A stretch of DNA of 60,333 bases from an uncultured Saprospiraceae bacterium (GTDB lineage Bacteria > Bacteroidota > Bacteroidia > Chitinophagales > Saprospiraceae): NCBI GenBank assembly GCA_938015805.1, contig CALLXF010000090.1, forward strand, positions 1-60,333. The letters are read 5' to 3'. Under the pieces are notes generated by a model. It did no database searches, had not been told where the DNA came from, and saw only the letters and a program-made list of their open reading frames with translations. Positions 11,150 to 52,310 of the stretch are shown here, piece after piece (positions within the stretch are counted from its first letter, which is position 1; each line of letters starts with the position of its first letter). Position numbers and translations under genes: made by a program.

Positions 11150-12082
11150 TTAATGAAACTTTGGTAAGAGTTTCTCTGATAAAGACTCCATTGTTTTTTC
11201 AATGTTATCGCTATTAAATCTTAAATTAATGGCTACGTGGTTTACACCAATGGAATGTAATTCTGAAAGATATTCGACAAGATAATTTACACCTGTCCTG
11301 ATACCTAGATGTATGCCCACTGGCTTAAAATCATCATTTCTTTGCAAGTCCACATATAATGGTTGTAAGAAGGGCTTGCTAGCATCTACCGTCTTGGGTA
11401 TTAATCCTCTCCACTCTTCAATATGGAGTTTCTGCATATGGAGATTTCTAGGATAGTACATCCAACCATCTCCCTTCGCTGCGATCCATTCTATACTTTG
11501 CTGGCTATGCCCAGTAATCAGCATGGGAATTTTAGCACCGAAGGGTTTTGGCAACACATCTATCTTGCCATTAAGCTCTCCGTAGCTATTAGTGTCCATG
11601 TATGGAAAGTCCAATTCTGCCTGTCGGATAAATTCATAAGCCTCTCTAAATTTTTCACCTCGCTTAGAATACTCCATATTCATTGCAGGAAATTCTTCAT
11701 AGCGATCACCAGATGCTACCCCCATGATCAATCTGCCATTACTCAATTGATCTATAGTGGCAGCAGATTTAGCTACATGTAGTGGATGACGTAAAGGAAG
11801 CGCAATACTCGAAACACCTAAGGCTATTTTGCTTGTCCTTCCTGCTAGATAACCAAGATAAGTGAATGGGTCAAAGGTCTGCCCAGCATCTCCAAATGTA
11901 GGGACATGCATAGGTACATCTCTTACCCAAACTGCTTTGAAGCCTAATTTTTCTGCAAGTTCAACTCTCTCCAAGTGATCTTGCAAACTGGGCACAGAAC
12001 TATTGCTATACTCCTCAATAGGTACAACCAGCCCTATGCTCAGTTTGTTAGGTTTAAAAACTTCATTAAACCCTTTGTTGAT
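11150..12082 (-). CDS. LLM-class flavin-dependent monooxygenase, BA3436-like; non-canonical start likely
   Basis: Bacterial luciferase-like TIM-barrel flavoprotein using reduced flavin. The body matches the BA3436-type luciferase-like oxidoreductases (WVRDVPMHVPTFGDAGQ, LPLRHPLHVAKSA, VASGDRYEEFPAM). The first usual start codon is GTG at 11993-11995, but that would delete strand beta-1. Upstream in the same frame lies FKPNKLSIGLVVPIEEY, the expected family N-terminus, with no ATG, GTG or TTG before the stop at about 12122-12124. I place the start at ATC (12080-12082), giving an N-terminus NKGFNEVF typical of the family; ATA at 12107-12109 or CTG at 12101-12103 are alternatives. The open frame reaches the end of the upstream MDR gene, so translational coupling is possible. 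A damaged gene is the other explanation. Confidence 0.85.
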   Translation of the reverse strand: MNKGFNEVFKPNKLSIGLVVPIEEYSNSSVPSLQDHLERVELAEKLGFKAVWVRDVPMHVPTFGDAGQTFDPFTYLGYLAGRTSKIALGVSSIALPLRHPLHVAKSAATIDQLSNGRLIMGVASGDRYEEFPAMNMEYSKRGEKFREAYEFIRQAELDFPYMDTNSYGELNGKIDVLPKPFGAKIPMLITGHSQQSIEWIAAKGDGWMYYPRNLHMQKLHIEEWRGLIPKTVDASKPFLQPLYVDLQRNDDFKPVGIHLGIRTGVNYLVEYLSELHSIGVNHVAINLRFNSDNIEKTMESLSEKLLPKFH

Positions 12083-12113
12083 TTGCTCAAATATTTTTGT
12101 CAGAACTATTGAT

Positions 12114-13100
12114 TTAATTTTCTATGACTACTTTACCCATTCCTTTACCACTAGATAATCTTGCATGAGCTTTAGCCACTTCAGTTAACGTATATCTATT
12201 TTTATCTATATATGGAGTCAGTTTTCCATTTTCAATAATTTTGGTTATCTCAGAAAGTATTCGATGATGGTCAGCCCTTTTATAATTGTGTAACATGGGT
12301 ATCAGCATAAACACCACATGTATAGATAAGCCTTTAAAATGAGCCAATGTCAAATCTAACTCAAGAAGAGATACAGTAGATACGACATGCCCGTTCAGCA
12401 TAGCAGCATTAAATGAGTTAATCATATTAGCTCCACCCACAGAATCGTAAACGATATCAAAACCAGCACCATTTGTATATTGCTGAACATAATCTTCAAC
12501 CTTCTTTGTTTTATAGTTGATCGCTGTAGCTCCTAGTTCTTCGATCAAAGCCATTTGGCGATCACCTCCACCTGTAGAATATACATCTGCTCCAAAATAG
12601 TTTGCAAGCTGCAACACGATATGACCAACACCTCCAGATCCACCGTGGACAAGAACTTTTTGCCCTGCCTTGATCCTCGCTCTCTCTAATCCCTCATAAG
12701 CCGTAATGGCTACCAGAGGTAGAGAGGCAGCCTCTCTCATAGTTAAGTTTTTAGGTTTGTGAGCGATAAGTTTTGTATCGGCAACTATATACTCTGCAAG
12801 TGTACCTGGCAATGCAGCAAGACCCCCTGCACAGCCATAAACTTGATCTCCAATACTAAAGCCTGTGACGCCGTCACCCAATGCTTCAATCGTACCTGCA
12901 AAATCCATCCCCAATATCGCGGGTAATTCTGGAGACAAGGGGAGATCTTTTCCCATATTACGTATCATAGTGTCTACTGTATTTACACTAGATGCTGCTA
13001 TTTTAACAAGGACCTCGCCACGCGTTGGTTCTGGCTTTTCTATTTCTGTTAGTTCAAATACGGAATCACTCCCGTATTGATTAAGTATCATTGCTTTCAT
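12114..13100 (-). CDS. Zeta-crystallin/quinone oxidoreductase-like MDR dehydrogenase
   Basis: 328-residue medium-chain NADPH-dependent reductase. It has the GroES-like N-terminal part (GMDFAGTIEALGDGVTGF) and the Rossmann motif GGSGGVGHIVLQLA. The structural zinc cysteine cluster of alcohol dehydrogenases is absent, as in quinone oxidoreductases. The likely job is reducing quinones or alpha,beta-unsaturated carbonyls. First gene of the operon with the flavin monooxygenase and SDR; 90 bp separate it from the divergent HxlR gene, with a palindrome in between (13114-13130) that would let the regulator control both sides. Confidence 0.92.
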   Translation of the reverse strand: MKAMILNQYGSDSVFELTEIEKPEPTRGEVLVKIAASSVNTVDTMIRNMGKDLPLSPELPAILGMDFAGTIEALGDGVTGFSIGDQVYGCAGGLAALPGTLAEYIVADTKLIAHKPKNLTMREAASLPLVAITAYEGLERARIKAGQKVLVHGGSGGVGHIVLQLANYFGADVYSTGGGDRQMALIEELGATAINYKTKKVEDYVQQYTNGAGFDIVYDSVGGANMINSFNAAMLNGHVVSTVSLLELDLTLAHFKGLSIHVVFMLIPMLHNYKRADHHRILSEITKIIENGKLTPYIDKNRYTLTEVAKAHARLSSGKGMGKVVIEN

Positions 13101-42313: not shown

Positions 42314-42616
42314 TTAGGAGGACTTACGTCCAAAGATTCTACGGAAAAACTTCTTCTCGTACTCCCAAAAAAAATCGAACTGACCCAATAAAAAGCCATA
42401 GATTAGTAAAAACAAGTTATAGACTGGCAGGATAAAAATCAAATATAAGACGGTAAATAGAATTGATTTTTGGCCATCACCTACAAAGAAGGTTACGACT
42501 GGCTTCTTAAGAAAAAGTATAGTGGTACCTGTCAGTGCAAACACTAATAATATAATTAGCATTTGCTTATAACTAACTCCCCACTTTTGCTGTAATTTAT
42601 CTGACCAATTTGCGAT
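42314..42616 (-). CDS. DUF6787-family small membrane protein; non-canonical start likely
   Basis: Two-helix inner membrane protein of a family I recognise from Bacteroidota: the LIILLVFALTGTT block and the end FLLGQFDFFWEYEKKFFRRIFG are typical. The first ATG is at 42560-42562, giving 82 residues, but members normally begin about 15 residues earlier with a KLxxKWxV block. That block is present upstream in frame (DKLQQKWGVSYKQ), and no ATG, GTG or TTG exists before it; ATC at 42614-42616 or ATA at 42620-42622 are candidate starts. I use ATC. The gene follows the His-rich lipoprotein gene with a short gap. Confidence 0.75.
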   Translation of the reverse strand: MANWSDKLQQKWGVSYKQMLIILLVFALTGTTILFLKKPVVTFFVGDGQKSILFTVLYLIFILPVYNLFLLIYGFLLGQFDFFWEYEKKFFRRIFGRKSS

Positions 42617-42642
42617 GACTATTGTTTTTAAGTATTTAAATT

Positions 42643-43878
42643 TTATTCCACCCAGTCTGCTACAAACATATTTGTAGATCGACCACCTCCGTTATTTCTA
42701 TTAGAAGAGAAGGCTAGTTTTTTTCCATCGAAAGAAAACATAGGGAAAGAATCAAAAGCATCATCAAAAGTTATTTGCTCTAATCCGCTTCCATCCTCAT
42801 TAATCATATAAAGATTAAAAGGAAATCCTCTTTCAGAGGTATGATTTGAAGAAAATATAATTTTATTTCCAGAAGGATGATAAAATGGGGCCCAGTTTGC
42901 CTTTCCTAATTTTGTTACTTGCTTAAGGTCAGAGCCATCCACATTACAGACATACAACTCCATATTAGTAGGTTGCACCAGACCCTGAGCTAATAGATCT
43001 TTATACTCCTTTATCTCTGCGTCTGTCTTAGGTCTACTGGATCTAAAAACGAGTTTAGAGCCATCTGGAGAAAAGAAAGCTCCTCCGTCATAACCTAGTC
43101 CATTAGTCACTTGCTTTTTATTAGAACCATCGATATCCATAGTCCACAACTCTAGGTCTCCTGAGGAAGTCGAGGTATAAACTATTTTATCTCCATTAGG
43201 GGAAACCGTTGCTTCTGCATCATATCCCGGACTATCTGTGAGTTGCTCAGTAATATTACCTTCTAGATCAGCCACGAAAATATCAAAGCTCTCATATATC
43301 GGCCAGACGTATTTATCTCCTCTCGGTGGCTCTGGTGGACATTTATCATCCCATAAATGAGTAGATGCATAAAGGACATGTTTATTTCCTGGCATAAAAT
43401 AAGAACAAGTGGTCCTGCCTTTTCCAGTGCTTAACAATGGAGGCATATCTTCTCGGTCTCTTTTAAAATCCTCTAAGTATATCTGATCACAAGGTGCATT
43501 CCACTTTTCATTTTTTGCCTGGAATACTAATTTTTTATCATCAAAACTCCAGTAAGCCTCTGCATTATCTCCTCCAAAAGTCAACTGACGTAAATTCTTA
43601 ATATGCACTTCCTGAGGATAGGTAAGATCCGCTTTTAAGGCCGAACCAGCTTTACTATCGCCATGATCGTGACCTGAGTGATCATGTCCAGAATGATCAT
43701 GACCTGAGTGATCATGTCCTGAGTGATCATGTCCAGCATGATCATGACCTGCGTGATCGTATCCCGCATGATCTTGACCTGAGTGATCGTGTCCTCCAGG
43801 TCCATGCTTATGGTCATGTTTACAAGCCATTACTACCATTAAAAAAACAACGATTATATAAGCTATGCGTATTTTCAC
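42643..43878 (-). CDS. His-rich lipoprotein with TolB-like beta-propeller
   Basis: 411 residues. Lipobox VVMAC (Cys19) is followed by a His/Asp-rich tract (residues 21-73) with 19 His, built from repeats of the five residues HDHSG or HDHAG. The rest is a TolB/PD40-type beta-propeller (GYDAEATVSPNGDKIVYTS, GAFFSPDGSKLVF, APFYHPSGNKIIFSS, FPMFSFDGKKLAFSS). His tracts like this bind Zn, Ni or Cu and are seen in metal chaperones; coupling to a propeller is less common. Metal storage or delivery at the outer membrane is inference. A -7 box lies 79 bp upstream. Confidence 0.88.
   Translation of the reverse strand: MKIRIAYIIVVFLMVVMACKHDHKHGPGGHDHSGQDHAGYDHAGHDHAGHDHSGHDHSGHDHSGHDHSGHDHGDSKAGSALKADLTYPQEVHIKNLRQLTFGGDNAEAYWSFDDKKLVFQAKNEKWNAPCDQIYLEDFKRDREDMPPLLSTGKGRTTCSYFMPGNKHVLYASTHLWDDKCPPEPPRGDKYVWPIYESFDIFVADLEGNITEQLTDSPGYDAEATVSPNGDKIVYTSTSSGDLELWTMDIDGSNKKQVTNGLGYDGGAFFSPDGSKLVFRSSRPKTDAEIKEYKDLLAQGLVQPTNMELYVCNVDGSDLKQVTKLGKANWAPFYHPSGNKIIFSSNHTSERGFPFNLYMINEDGSGLEQITFDDAFDSFPMFSFDGKKLAFSSNRNNGGGRSTNMFVADWVE
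43660..43791 (-). repeat. 15-bp tandem repeat encoding HDHxG
   Basis: About nine copies of a 15-nt unit (codons for His-Asp-His-Ser/Ala-Gly) in the lipoprotein gene. The middle copies are nearly identical, so copy number may vary between strains. Confidence 0.85.
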
Positions 43879-48907: not shown

Positions 48908-51361
48908 TTAGTAGGGATCCACGTCTAAGTTTATTCTAACAGATTTAAATCCGGGCGAATTTAAAGTATGTAAACGAGCATGCATTAAAAAGCGTTTTAA
49001 ACCATTCATAACTTTAGGATCTTTTTCCATTTTTATCGTAATGTTCTGTAGGTACTGTCCTCTAAGTCTAGCAACTCCAGGCTGTGTTGGACCTAGTATA
49101 CGATTCCCAAATTTTGCAGATAATTGCTTAGCCAGAAAATGAGCTGCCTCTAATACAGTTTTGGGCTGTTTATGCTTAAGTGTTATTTGTATAAATCTAT
49201 AAAACGGAGGGTAAACAAATTTTTGTCTTTCGGCCATCTCTCGAGCAAAAAATCTATCATAATTATTATCTATCGTTTCTAAAATAACTGGATGTGTAGG
49301 CTGAAAAGATTGTATGATTACTTTTCCTTGCTTACGTTTTCTACCTGCACGACCGGCCACCTGAGTAAATAACTGATAAGCCCTTTCTCCTGCTCTAAAG
49401 TCAGGAAATTGTAAGGATAAATCTGCATTTAAAATTCCGACTATTCCGATGTCTTCAAAATCTAGTCCTTTGGTGATCATCTGGGTACCAACTAGGATAT
49501 CTATTTTTTTTGCAGTAAAATCAGCAATTATATTTTGGTAGGCATTTTTAGTTTTAGTAGTATCGTAATCCATTCGTGCCACTTTGGCATCTGGAAAAAG
49601 TTCTCTGATCTGAGCCTCTATTTTCTCTGTTCCATAGCCTTTTTGGTTTAACGTATGAGATCCACAGGCAGGACAGGTTTCTATCATTTTACGTCTCGAA
49701 CCACAGTAATGACATCTTAGTTCGTTAAAAAATTTATGCACCGTAAGACTGACATCGCAATTATTACATTCGGCGTGCCAGCCGCATTGATCACATTGGA
49801 TCGTAGGAGCATAACCTCTCCTATTTTGGAAAATCATCGCTTGCTCATCATTAGCTAATGCCTTTTCTATACCCTCTCTTAAAGCTAAACTAAAACCATT
49901 TTTTATCCTCTTCGTCTTGTACTCATATCGTAAATCGACCACTTCTATTTCTGGTAAAGCCACAGAACCGATTCTATTTTTCAGTTGGACTAATCCATAT
50001 TTACCTTGATTTACATTATGGAAGCTCTCTAAAGATGGAGTTGCAGATCCTAGGATCACCTTAGCATCATGGAGCTGTGCCATAACGACTGCCGTGTCTC
50101 TACCGTTATACCGAGGGGCAGGATCCTGCTGCTTATAAGAGCTGTCATGTTCTTCATCTACGATGATCAATCCTAGATTTTTATAAGGTAAAAACATACT
50201 AGATCGAGCTCCTAAAACGATCGGCTTCTCATCATTTACGGCTTTCCATATTTCTACTCTTTCGGCATTACCCATTCTGGAATGATAGGTACCTACATCA
50301 TCTCCAAAGACAGCTCTCAGTCTACTCACAATCTGTGTCGTAAGTGCAATCTCCGGAAGTAAATATAGGACTTGTTTTCCCAGAGCTAGCTGCTCTCTTA
50401 TGAGTTCGATATAAATCCTAGTCTTACCACTTCCAGTAACACCGTGTAATAAGATTTGGGACTTTTCTTTATAGATAGCACTTATAGATTTTAAAGCCGT
50501 GGACTGATCATCTGTCAGTAGCGGTAGTTCCTTCTGCTGATAATTACCATGGACTAGTCTCGATACTTCCATCTCCGATAGCTCGATGATCCCTTTTTTT
50601 TCTAAGGCCCTCAGAACTGAGTTATCCACTTTACTGATTTCGTAAATATCTGATTTTGGAATAAATTCTTGTGATTTAGAAAACTGATATATCGCTAAGA
50701 TAGCTCTAGTTTGCTTTTCAGATTTTTTTACCGCGTCTAATACTTCGGATAATTTATTAGGTTCTTTTTTGTAGGCTTCCGCCAATTGAACAACACCTAT
50801 ATTTTTAGGTTTATATTTTTCTATAAGTTCCTCTCGGACATACACGACCTCTTTATCTAGTAAGCTACGGATAACGGGGTATACTGTTTTTTTATCTAGG
50901 ATACTCCGTATTTCTCCAATGGTTAGTTCATTTTGGATTGTTATGGCTTCTGCTATCATGTACTCTTCATCACTAAGCGTGGTCATATCTTCCTGGTAAT
51001 TAGGATTGATATACACTTTAGTTTCAGAAGTGAGTTTTAACCCAGAAGGGAGAGCGACATTCATCACCTCCCCGATAGTACAAGAATAATAGTTAGAAAT
51101 CCAATTCCAAAGCTTAAACTGTTGATCACCGATAATAGGCTCTTTATCTATGATCGAGACGATCGTTCTGGGTTTATAATCCATCTGCATCTCTTTTTGC
51201 AAATCGATCACAAGAGCAGAGTATAGTTTGTTTTTTAATGGAACCTCTACCCTTACCCCAAACTGAATATCACTGATCAACTCCTCGGGCACTACATAAG
51301 TATACTGCTTAGGTAAGGCTAAAGGAAGAACAACTGTCGCATATAAATTTTGCTTATCCAG
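48908..51361 (-). CDS. priA: Primosomal helicase PriA; non-canonical start likely
   Basis: Replication restart helicase. All parts are there: Walker A GVTGSGKT, Walker B VDEEHDSSYK, helicase motifs to LVGTQMITKGLDF, and the two zinc sites in CDQCGWHAECNNCD and CHYCG/CPACGS. The first usual start is GTG at 51290-51292, which cuts off the conserved 3'-end binding start. The expected opening YATVVLPLALPKQYTYVV is encoded upstream in the same frame, but between the in-frame stop at 51374-51376 and that block no ATG, GTG or TTG exists. CTG (51359-51361) and ATA (51368-51370) are the best candidates. PriA is essential or near essential, so gene decay is unlikely. Confidence 0.93.
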   Translation of the reverse strand: MDKQNLYATVVLPLALPKQYTYVVPEELISDIQFGVRVEVPLKNKLYSALVIDLQKEMQMDYKPRTIVSIIDKEPIIGDQQFKLWNWISNYYSCTIGEVMNVALPSGLKLTSETKVYINPNYQEDMTTLSDEEYMIAEAITIQNELTIGEIRSILDKKTVYPVIRSLLDKEVVYVREELIEKYKPKNIGVVQLAEAYKKEPNKLSEVLDAVKKSEKQTRAILAIYQFSKSQEFIPKSDIYEISKVDNSVLRALEKKGIIELSEMEVSRLVHGNYQQKELPLLTDDQSTALKSISAIYKEKSQILLHGVTGSGKTRIYIELIREQLALGKQVLYLLPEIALTTQIVSRLRAVFGDDVGTYHSRMGNAERVEIWKAVNDEKPIVLGARSSMFLPYKNLGLIIVDEEHDSSYKQQDPAPRYNGRDTAVVMAQLHDAKVILGSATPSLESFHNVNQGKYGLVQLKNRIGSVALPEIEVVDLRYEYKTKRIKNGFSLALREGIEKALANDEQAMIFQNRRGYAPTIQCDQCGWHAECNNCDVSLTVHKFFNELRCHYCGSRRKMIETCPACGSHTLNQKGYGTEKIEAQIRELFPDAKVARMDYDTTKTKNAYQNIIADFTAKKIDILVGTQMITKGLDFEDIGIVGILNADLSLQFPDFRAGERAYQLFTQVAGRAGRKRKQGKVIIQSFQPTHPVILETIDNNYDRFFAREMAERQKFVYPPFYRFIQITLKHKQPKTVLEAAHFLAKQLSAKFGNRILGPTQPGVARLRGQYLQNITIKMEKDPKVMNGLKRFLMHARLHTLNSPGFKSVRINLDVDPY

Positions 51362-51407
51362 ACTCTTTATAGTTTAAATTGACACAAAGTAACAGATCGT
51401 AATCCGA

Positions 51408-52310
51408 CTAAAAAAATATCTCTTGTGCCATTCTAAAAGTATTAGCATGAGCATCTATTATAAAGCGGATTTCTTCAGAGTATCCTCCGCCCATACTGAC
51501 CGCTACTGGGATATTATTTTTATGACATTGCTCAAGTACAAAACGATCTCTTTCTTTACACCCATTTAAGGTCATAGATAATCTACCAAGTTTATCTGTT
51601 TCCAGTACATCTACCCCTGCAAGATAAAAAATCATATCTGGCTGTTGCTCATCGATCAGTTTAGGTAAAGTCTCTTTAAGCATTTTTAAAAAATATGCGT
51701 CCTCCGTTTTATCAGGGACACCGATATCTAGATCAGATTGTTCTTTACGGGTAGGATAATTTTTAGCTCCATGCATAGAAAAAGTAAAAACTCTTTGCTC
51801 ATCTTTAAAAATACGAGCAGTTCCATTTCCCTGATGTACATCCAGATCTACGATTAAAATCTTACTACATATCTTACGATCTAACAATAAATGACTAGCG
51901 ATTGCAAAATCATTATAAACACAAAAGCCCTCTCCATGATCCGCAAAAGCATGATGGGTACCTCCTGCTATATTCATTGCGACACCATTAGTCATGGCAT
52001 ATAAAGCACAATCATAGGTTCCTTTAGAAATATATTTCCCTCTTTCCACTAGAGCAGTAGTCATCGGGAATCCGATATTACGTATTTCTTTTTTTGATAG
52101 TAGCTGATGGTCTAGTTTATGGAGGTATTCTGCAGTATGAGTAAATAGCATTTCTTCATTAACCAGTTGTTCAGGATGAAAAAAGTGATCTTCCGTAATG
52201 GTTCCCTCGTAAAGAAGTTGTTCTGGAAGCAACTCATATTTTAGCATCGGAAAACGATGGCCCTCTGGCAACGCATATTTATAAACTGGAGAAAAAGCAA
52301 TTTTTAACAT
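51408..52310 (-). CDS. Histone deacetylase-family (AcuC-like) amidohydrolase
   Basis: 300-residue zinc-dependent deacetylase fold. The catalytic His pair lies in GGTHHAFADHGEGFC, zinc ligands are in VDLDVHQGNGT and later YLAGVDVLETD, and the final GGGYSEE motif is present. Class I/II bacterial homologues deacetylate acetyl-lysine, polyamines or acetoin-linked targets; the substrate here is unknown. It precedes priA by 46 bp on the same strand; the best promoter of the pair is at 52327-52356. Confidence 0.92.
   Translation of the reverse strand: MLKIAFSPVYKYALPEGHRFPMLKYELLPEQLLYEGTITEDHFFHPEQLVNEEMLFTHTAEYLHKLDHQLLSKKEIRNIGFPMTTALVERGKYISKGTYDCALYAMTNGVAMNIAGGTHHAFADHGEGFCVYNDFAIASHLLLDRKICSKILIVDLDVHQGNGTARIFKDEQRVFTFSMHGAKNYPTRKEQSDLDIGVPDKTEDAYFLKMLKETLPKLIDEQQPDMIFYLAGVDVLETDKLGRLSMTLNGCKERDRFVLEQCHKNNIPVAVSMGGGYSEEIRFIIDAHANTFRMAQEIFF

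Follow-up and report, generated by a model that had tools for sequence, protein, structure and literature searches.

The window, by which we mean the whole 60,333-nucleotide stretch of DNA that was analyzed, corresponds to contig C90 in a draft genome of 3.59 Mb (G000), which we place in the family Saprospiraceae: priA identified ten named relatives, and the nearest four are Saprospiraceae assemblies. The window carries three minus-strand genes, priA, a luciferase-like oxidoreductase of the LLM class (hereafter, the LLM gene) and a gene of the DUF6787 family (Table 1), and for all three, comparison with relatives supports a putative start outside the usual set of ATG, GTG, and TTG. We use the term near-cognate here for CTG, ATC, ATT, and ATA. 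The genomes compared are drafts, and one of them, G002, belongs to the same genus as G000. In each case a co-directional gene ends shortly upstream, its end lying 46, 10, and 26 nt before the proposed priA, LLM, and DUF6787 starts, respectively; the gene next to priA we take, judging by eye, to be histone deacetylase-like. A preliminary description of this DNA had reported that the three genes lack a usual start, and this was borne out both by direct reading and by the aligned relatives.

Table 1. Coordinates of the genes and codons discussed, numbered along the window
Feature	Position	Strand	Basis
priA coding sequence from CTG, 817 aa	48908..51361	-	Direct reading; domains and TIGR00595
CTG, inferred priA start codon	51359..51361	-	Aligned CTG in G002, CTG in G018
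In-frame TAA upstream of priA	51374..51376	-	Direct reading
GTG, first usual start in the priA frame, within the conserved block	51290..51292	-	Direct reading
Gene just upstream of priA	51408..52310	-	Reading-frame list
Luciferase-like LLM-class oxidoreductase, TIGR03571 (BA3436 type), from CTG	11150..12103	-	TIGR03571
CTG, inferred LLM gene start codon	12101..12103	-	Aligned codons of relatives
Gene upstream of the LLM gene	12114..13100	-	Reading-frame list
DUF6787 gene, 100 aa, from ATC	42314..42616	-	PF20584
ATC, inferred DUF6787 start codon	42614..42616	-	Aligned family loci
Gene upstream of the DUF6787 gene	42643..43878	-	Reading-frame list

The priA Gene Appears to Begin at CTG

The priA product contains the full set of PriA domains, namely PF17764 (3'-DNA-binding), DEAD, Zn_ribbon_PriA, and PriA_C, and its score against TIGR00595 (613.3 bits, cut-off 230.35) identifies it as PriA, in support of the earlier view that the gene is not decayed. 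On the minus strand, the frame reads TAA ACT ATA AAG AGT CTG GAT AAG CAA AAT TTA TAT GCG ACA GTT GTT CTT CCT and, as the preliminary description had stated, holds no ATG, GTG, or TTG between the TAA and the conserved PriA N-terminus. That description had left the start as either CTG or ATA. We prefer the CTG because the priA of G002, 66% identical, has CTG at exactly the aligned codon; the ATA is not shared with relatives and thus less well supported. Readthrough of the TAA from a mini-frame upstream of priA, GTG TCA ATT TAA, was also considered and rejected, as the arrangement is not kept in G002.

We compared priA N-termini in 81 loci, a duplicate (L035) having been dropped beforehand, and could find the N-terminal anchor in 76 of them but not in the remaining 5. 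A usual start was present within 26 codons upstream of the anchor in 73 of the 76. The three loci without ATG, GTG, or TTG were those of G000, of G002, and of G018, a member of another genus, which amounts to 3 of 60 Saprospiraceae and none of the 16 other loci. Their CTG codons stand 12, 12, and 15 codons, respectively, before the anchor proline, and in G018 the CTG, found where the relative L011 has ATG CAC CCC, is the sole option.

TTG is a frequent priA start in Saprospiraceae (L005-L031 and L222-L246), and one group of loci shares a TTG ... SFHP leader. A weak start is thus common for priA in this family, and CTG is one base away from TTG.

Candidate Starts of the LLM and DUF6787 Genes

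The LLM protein matches TIGR03571 over the full profile (1-304 of 304; 388.8 bits against a cut-off of 303.9), which places it in that family. The preliminary description had assigned starts of the ATA or ATC type to both this gene and the DUF6787 gene; for DUF6787 the ATC stands, but for the LLM gene the CTG is a better candidate than the ATA and ATC codons near 12082, since CTG is found at the aligned codon in G035 (L051) and ATG at or near it in L045-L050, exactly aligned in L050 and one codon to either side in L045-L049. The G035 copy has the upstream gene in the same place and no usual start between its in-frame stop and a GTG 94 codons on. This copy (L134:979-1794) may be broken, as the match ends early and covers residues 1-244 of 323 only, within an open frame of 272.

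The DUF6787 protein belongs to PF20584 (profile 1-77 of 79; 97.4 bits against a cut-off of 27.5). The match begins at residue 21 and the first ATG of the frame is residue 19, so that the case for the ATC comes from the alignment of relatives and the differences between G000 and G002, not from Pfam. No usual start precedes the conserved block in 6 of the 28 family loci, which represent two genera: ATC is found in G000, G002, and G003 and, in the second genus, in G020 and G222, and ATA in G269, also of the second genus. In all six, an in-frame stop lies 2-25 codons upstream of the ATC or ATA, and in two of them a TTG occurs inside the conserved block. The other 22 family loci have ATG (20 loci) or TTG (2 loci), and none of the six loci outside Saprospiraceae lacks a usual start. 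Comparing G000 with G002 along the 18 codons from the ATC to the first ATG, we counted, by eye, five silent and three amino-acid changes; this predominance of silent change upstream of the ATG is, on the alignment, a coding pattern.

The true starts might instead be the usual codons further in, such as the GTG at 51290-51292 in priA, with the codons upstream left untranslated. Those codons are the earliest usual starts of their frames, and the DUF6787 Pfam profile lies wholly after the ATG. Against this, PF17764 spans residues 10-105 of the CTG-started PriA (profile 2-96 of 96) and the GTG is residue 24, so that starting there would cut 14 residues of the domain. The motif of this stretch could be located in 76 of the 81 loci; as the domain begins 14 residues before the GTG, no usual start serves PriA. 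A usual-codon start would likewise remove 36 residues from the LLM protein, 26 of them within TIGR03571, and 18 residues from the DUF6787 protein, which align in relatives starting at ATG and have changed mostly silently between G000 and G002. We consider inner starts very improbable. Use of another near-cognate codon close by, ATA at 51368-51370 in priA or at 42620-42622 in DUF6787, is somewhat easier to imagine and still unlikely: these codons are in frame but are not common to relatives, whereas the CTG and the ATC are.

Survey of Three Saprospiraceae Genomes

For each open frame of a sample of sequence, we asked whether homology reaches upstream of the first usual start, and sorted the candidates by eye. 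The sample consisted of 440 kb of G000 including the window, 1.03 Mb of G001, 0.35 Mb of G028, and smaller pieces of four other genomes. From 25 candidates listed, we kept 8 as putative near-cognate starts: 3 of 6 in G000, 2 of 10 in G001, and 3 of 9 in G028. Relative to the N-termini that could be tested, these make 3 of 87, 2 of 124, and 3 of 69, respectively, or, pooled over the three genomes and with the sorting by eye, 8 of 280 genes. The G000 cases are the three window genes. G001 yielded a GHMP kinase with an ATC and, probably with CTG, an ECF sigma factor (L148:10343-10849), although the codon of the latter is a guess as this CTG lies ahead of the aligned part. G028 contributed a LolC/E-type permease, apparently with CTG where G001 has TTG (L176:15371-16702), the GHMP kinase once more, again with ATC, and a LuxE-like gene (ATC). 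We are least sure of the G028 LuxE-like gene and of the exact codon of the G001 sigma factor.

Among the candidates dropped, two of the three from G000 (L104 and L105) could plausibly begin at a usual start, and the third, an open frame without one (L121:4329-4661, minus strand), aligns solely with the C-terminal portion of a longer protein from G001 and is probably a gene fragment. Eight were dropped from G001: six, IF3 among them, in which a usual start sits where expected and the alignment extends past it by chance, one fragment, and a LuxE-like gene with TTG four codons on. The six dropped from G028 were four genes that have a usual start where one would expect it, plus two fragments. Codon-usage scoring of start-free stretches was too weak to detect such genes without homology.

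Within G000, the cases are unevenly spread, with 3 of the 14 testable genes in the window and 0 of the 73 outside it (Fisher P = 0.003). The density in the window is thus a local excess that came to notice because this DNA was read, and it should not be taken to represent the genome.

An ATC Codon in GHMP Kinases of Several Genera

The GHMP kinase found in the survey, of the GYDIA type and encoded outside the window, is the strongest candidate for a near-cognate start that we found. We searched for it in 60 relatives, found it in 45 genomes, and compared the DNA of the best 30 of the 45 (L267-L296), of which 29 could be anchored, 23 from Saprospiraceae and 6 from elsewhere. NF040656 identifies the G001 copy as a member of its family (369.3 vs. 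225 bits), the assignment applying to that copy only. No usual start was present between the in-frame stop and the conserved GK block in 10 of the 23 Saprospiraceae loci (e.g., L276) and in none of the 6 others. Nine of the ten have ATC and one has ATT, 7-8 codons before the GK block; in G020, the ATC follows the stop with just one codon, GTT, in between. In the locus of G002, the eleventh, the ATC is accompanied by a GTG that lies 12 codons upstream of it, and the remaining loci have ATG or TTG, the G000 copy TTG. L293, from outside Saprospiraceae, is a doubtful case, its sole usual start being a TTG 26 codons before the GK block. The codon upstream of the ATC varies and the ATC itself is constant, as would be expected of a start codon. 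The base before the ATC is mostly C or T (GTC ATC, ACC ATC) in both the DUF6787 and the GHMP kinase starts.

In the protein tree, we labelled twelve rows as near-cognate: the ten loci, G002, and L293. Nine of the ten fell together with G002 in a clade of 13 rows (support 99/96) that also holds three rows with TTG or ATG, and G023 and L293 lay outside it. The tree needs six label changes, four of them forced by well-supported branches, so that the near-cognate state has been gained or lost repeatedly.

Because other genomes, too, lack a usual start at the aligned positions, its absence is more than a chance feature of one sequence. The same recurrence bears on the idea that sequencing or assembly errors hide an ATG, a natural concern with draft assemblies: identical codons at aligned positions, in four genes, in separately assembled genomes and in proteins that are 41-81% identical, leave that idea with next to no credibility.

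Initiation Factor 3 and Initiator tRNA

According to the preliminary description, start selection is relaxed in this organism, and a change in IF3 or in the initiator tRNA was offered as a testable cause. The G000 IF3 is intact (PF00707, 111.6 bits, over the cut-off), and its gene, infC, starts with TTG (TTG GCA; L086:1186-1776), as it does in several relatives. We aligned 27 of 30 fetched IF3 loci, 14 of the 30 being from other families. The E. coli residues R99 and R129 are replaced (by G/T and H/Q/F, respectively) in all 27, G000 included, and at the 12 E. coli positions compared we found no residue unique to G000. Such a shared loss cannot explain a peculiarity of one organism, but it may be relevant to the wider group.

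The G000 initiator tRNA likewise looks ordinary, with a CAT anticodon and the three G-C pairs (GGG/CCC) of the anticodon stem. A pattern scan revealed no second initiator-like tRNA and none with another anticodon among the 30 tRNA matches listed (150 of 226 candidates scored; no Ile-GAT among them), a list that may have gaps. An alteration present here and absent from relatives was thus found neither in IF3, at the 12 positions, nor in the initiator tRNA, for which the G000 copy was inspected. The 16S rRNA gene was found in 3 of 40 genomes and in none of 25 Saprospiraceae; two order-level 16S genes read GGAAT at what we take to be position 1338. In E. coli, the 16S mutation G1338A raises CUG initiation (PMC11497404).

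The concentration of three cases in one 60-kb window could still be read in favor of a G000-specific relaxation. The same habit in other genera and its absence from the rest of the G000 sample, together with IF3 differences common to all aligned loci and an ordinary initiator tRNA, make such a relaxation very unlikely, and neither of the proposed causes was supported.

Discussion

Judging from the aligned sequences, priA and other ordinary genes of Saprospiraceae appear to begin at codons of the CTG and ATC type that gene finders ignore, and the conservation of these odd starts across several genera makes them look real. Very probably, the three window genes are translated from near-cognate starts by the ordinary initiator tRNA, as part of a habit of the whole family. 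With such a tRNA, the codon would have to be read with a mismatch, at the first position for CTG (priA and the LLM gene) and at the third for ATC, ATT, and ATA (ATC in DUF6787). The leaders of the three genes are rich in A/T and their folding is weak (-5.0, -2.8, and 0 kcal/mol over 61 nt for the three window starts), and we would expect initiation at CTG or ATC to give weak translation of the genes behind them. The product obtained from CUG in E. coli is about 0.86% of that from AUG (PMC11497404, citing Hecht 2017), which suggests low expression here as well. Each of the three genes follows immediately on another of the same orientation, whose terminating ribosomes may aid initiation at the start behind it. 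An A at position -3 is a positive determinant in Flavobacterium johnsoniae (PMC6847099); it is present in priA and absent from the LLM and DUF6787 genes, and 32 of the 65 ATG-started genes of the sample have it.

The ATC of the GHMP kinases and the ATC or ATA of DUF6787 are kept over several genera, as if weak starts were tolerated or favored for low expression or for control by IF3. As to a regulatory use, there is an even chance that near-cognate starts are instead tolerated drift from TTG or ATG, without regulatory function. The frequent TTG starts of priA, one base from CTG, and the three TTG or ATG rows within the GHMP kinase clade speak for drift, whereas the presence of ATC in the GHMP kinases of seven genera of that clade, over long branches, speaks against it; the shares of ATC among isoleucine codons, multiplied over the ten rows, give about 1e-5, although the rows are related. 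A stronger proposal, that Saprospiraceae use an extended start set of ATG, GTG, TTG, CTG, ATC, ATT, and ATA, with conserved genes held at AUC or CUG by selection and co-varying with IF3 level or initiation stringency, we put forward only tentatively and think rather doubtful.

Near-cognate starts are usually viewed as curiosities confined to a gene or two in each genome; in Saprospiraceae they seem to recur in unrelated genes, in a phylum that initiates without Shine-Dalgarno pairing. If this is true, standard gene finders mis-mark these proteins throughout the family, PriA included, and the family would offer natural material for studying start-codon stringency without Shine-Dalgarno pairing. 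CUG is given as 0.024% of bacterial initiation codons (PMC11497404, citing Hecht 2017), and a comparison of related genomes in 36 triplets found a change to CUG at 2 of 61,358 AUG starts (PMC5622118). These published baselines depend on annotation that seldom allows such codons. Among the open-licence papers listed in literature searches, we saw no report of such starts in Saprospiraceae.

The known systems differ from the present one in gene, codon, or leader. The infC gene starts with ATT in E. coli and with ATC in Streptomyces (PMC5472188) and is similar in being a bacterial housekeeping gene with a near-cognate AUN start. Here, infC starts with TTG, and the near-cognate starts are found in priA, the LLM oxidoreductase, DUF6787, and the GHMP kinase of relatives; autoregulation belongs to the known infC system with ATT or ATC. 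The Streptomyces sigR gene, with a GTC start repressed by IF3, is likewise a lineage-conserved start missed by annotation (PMC5472188), but the codons here are others, and sigR has a strong ribosome-binding site where the present genes have A/T-rich leaders. Initiation independent of Shine-Dalgarno pairing in F. johnsoniae shares with our cases the phylum and the A/T-rich leaders; the study describing it (PMC6847099) treats AUG context, and the terms "CUG", "GUG", and "non-AUG" are absent from its main text. As in infC and sigR, no ATG, GTG, or TTG lies between the in-frame stop and the conserved N-terminus of the genes described here, and the same near-cognate codon is kept in relatives for priA, the LLM gene, DUF6787, and the GHMP kinase. 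Near-cognate starts as a kind are thus known from infC and sigR, and what is new is that they apparently recur in several unrelated genes within a single family and that a putative ATC start is conserved in two of these genes.
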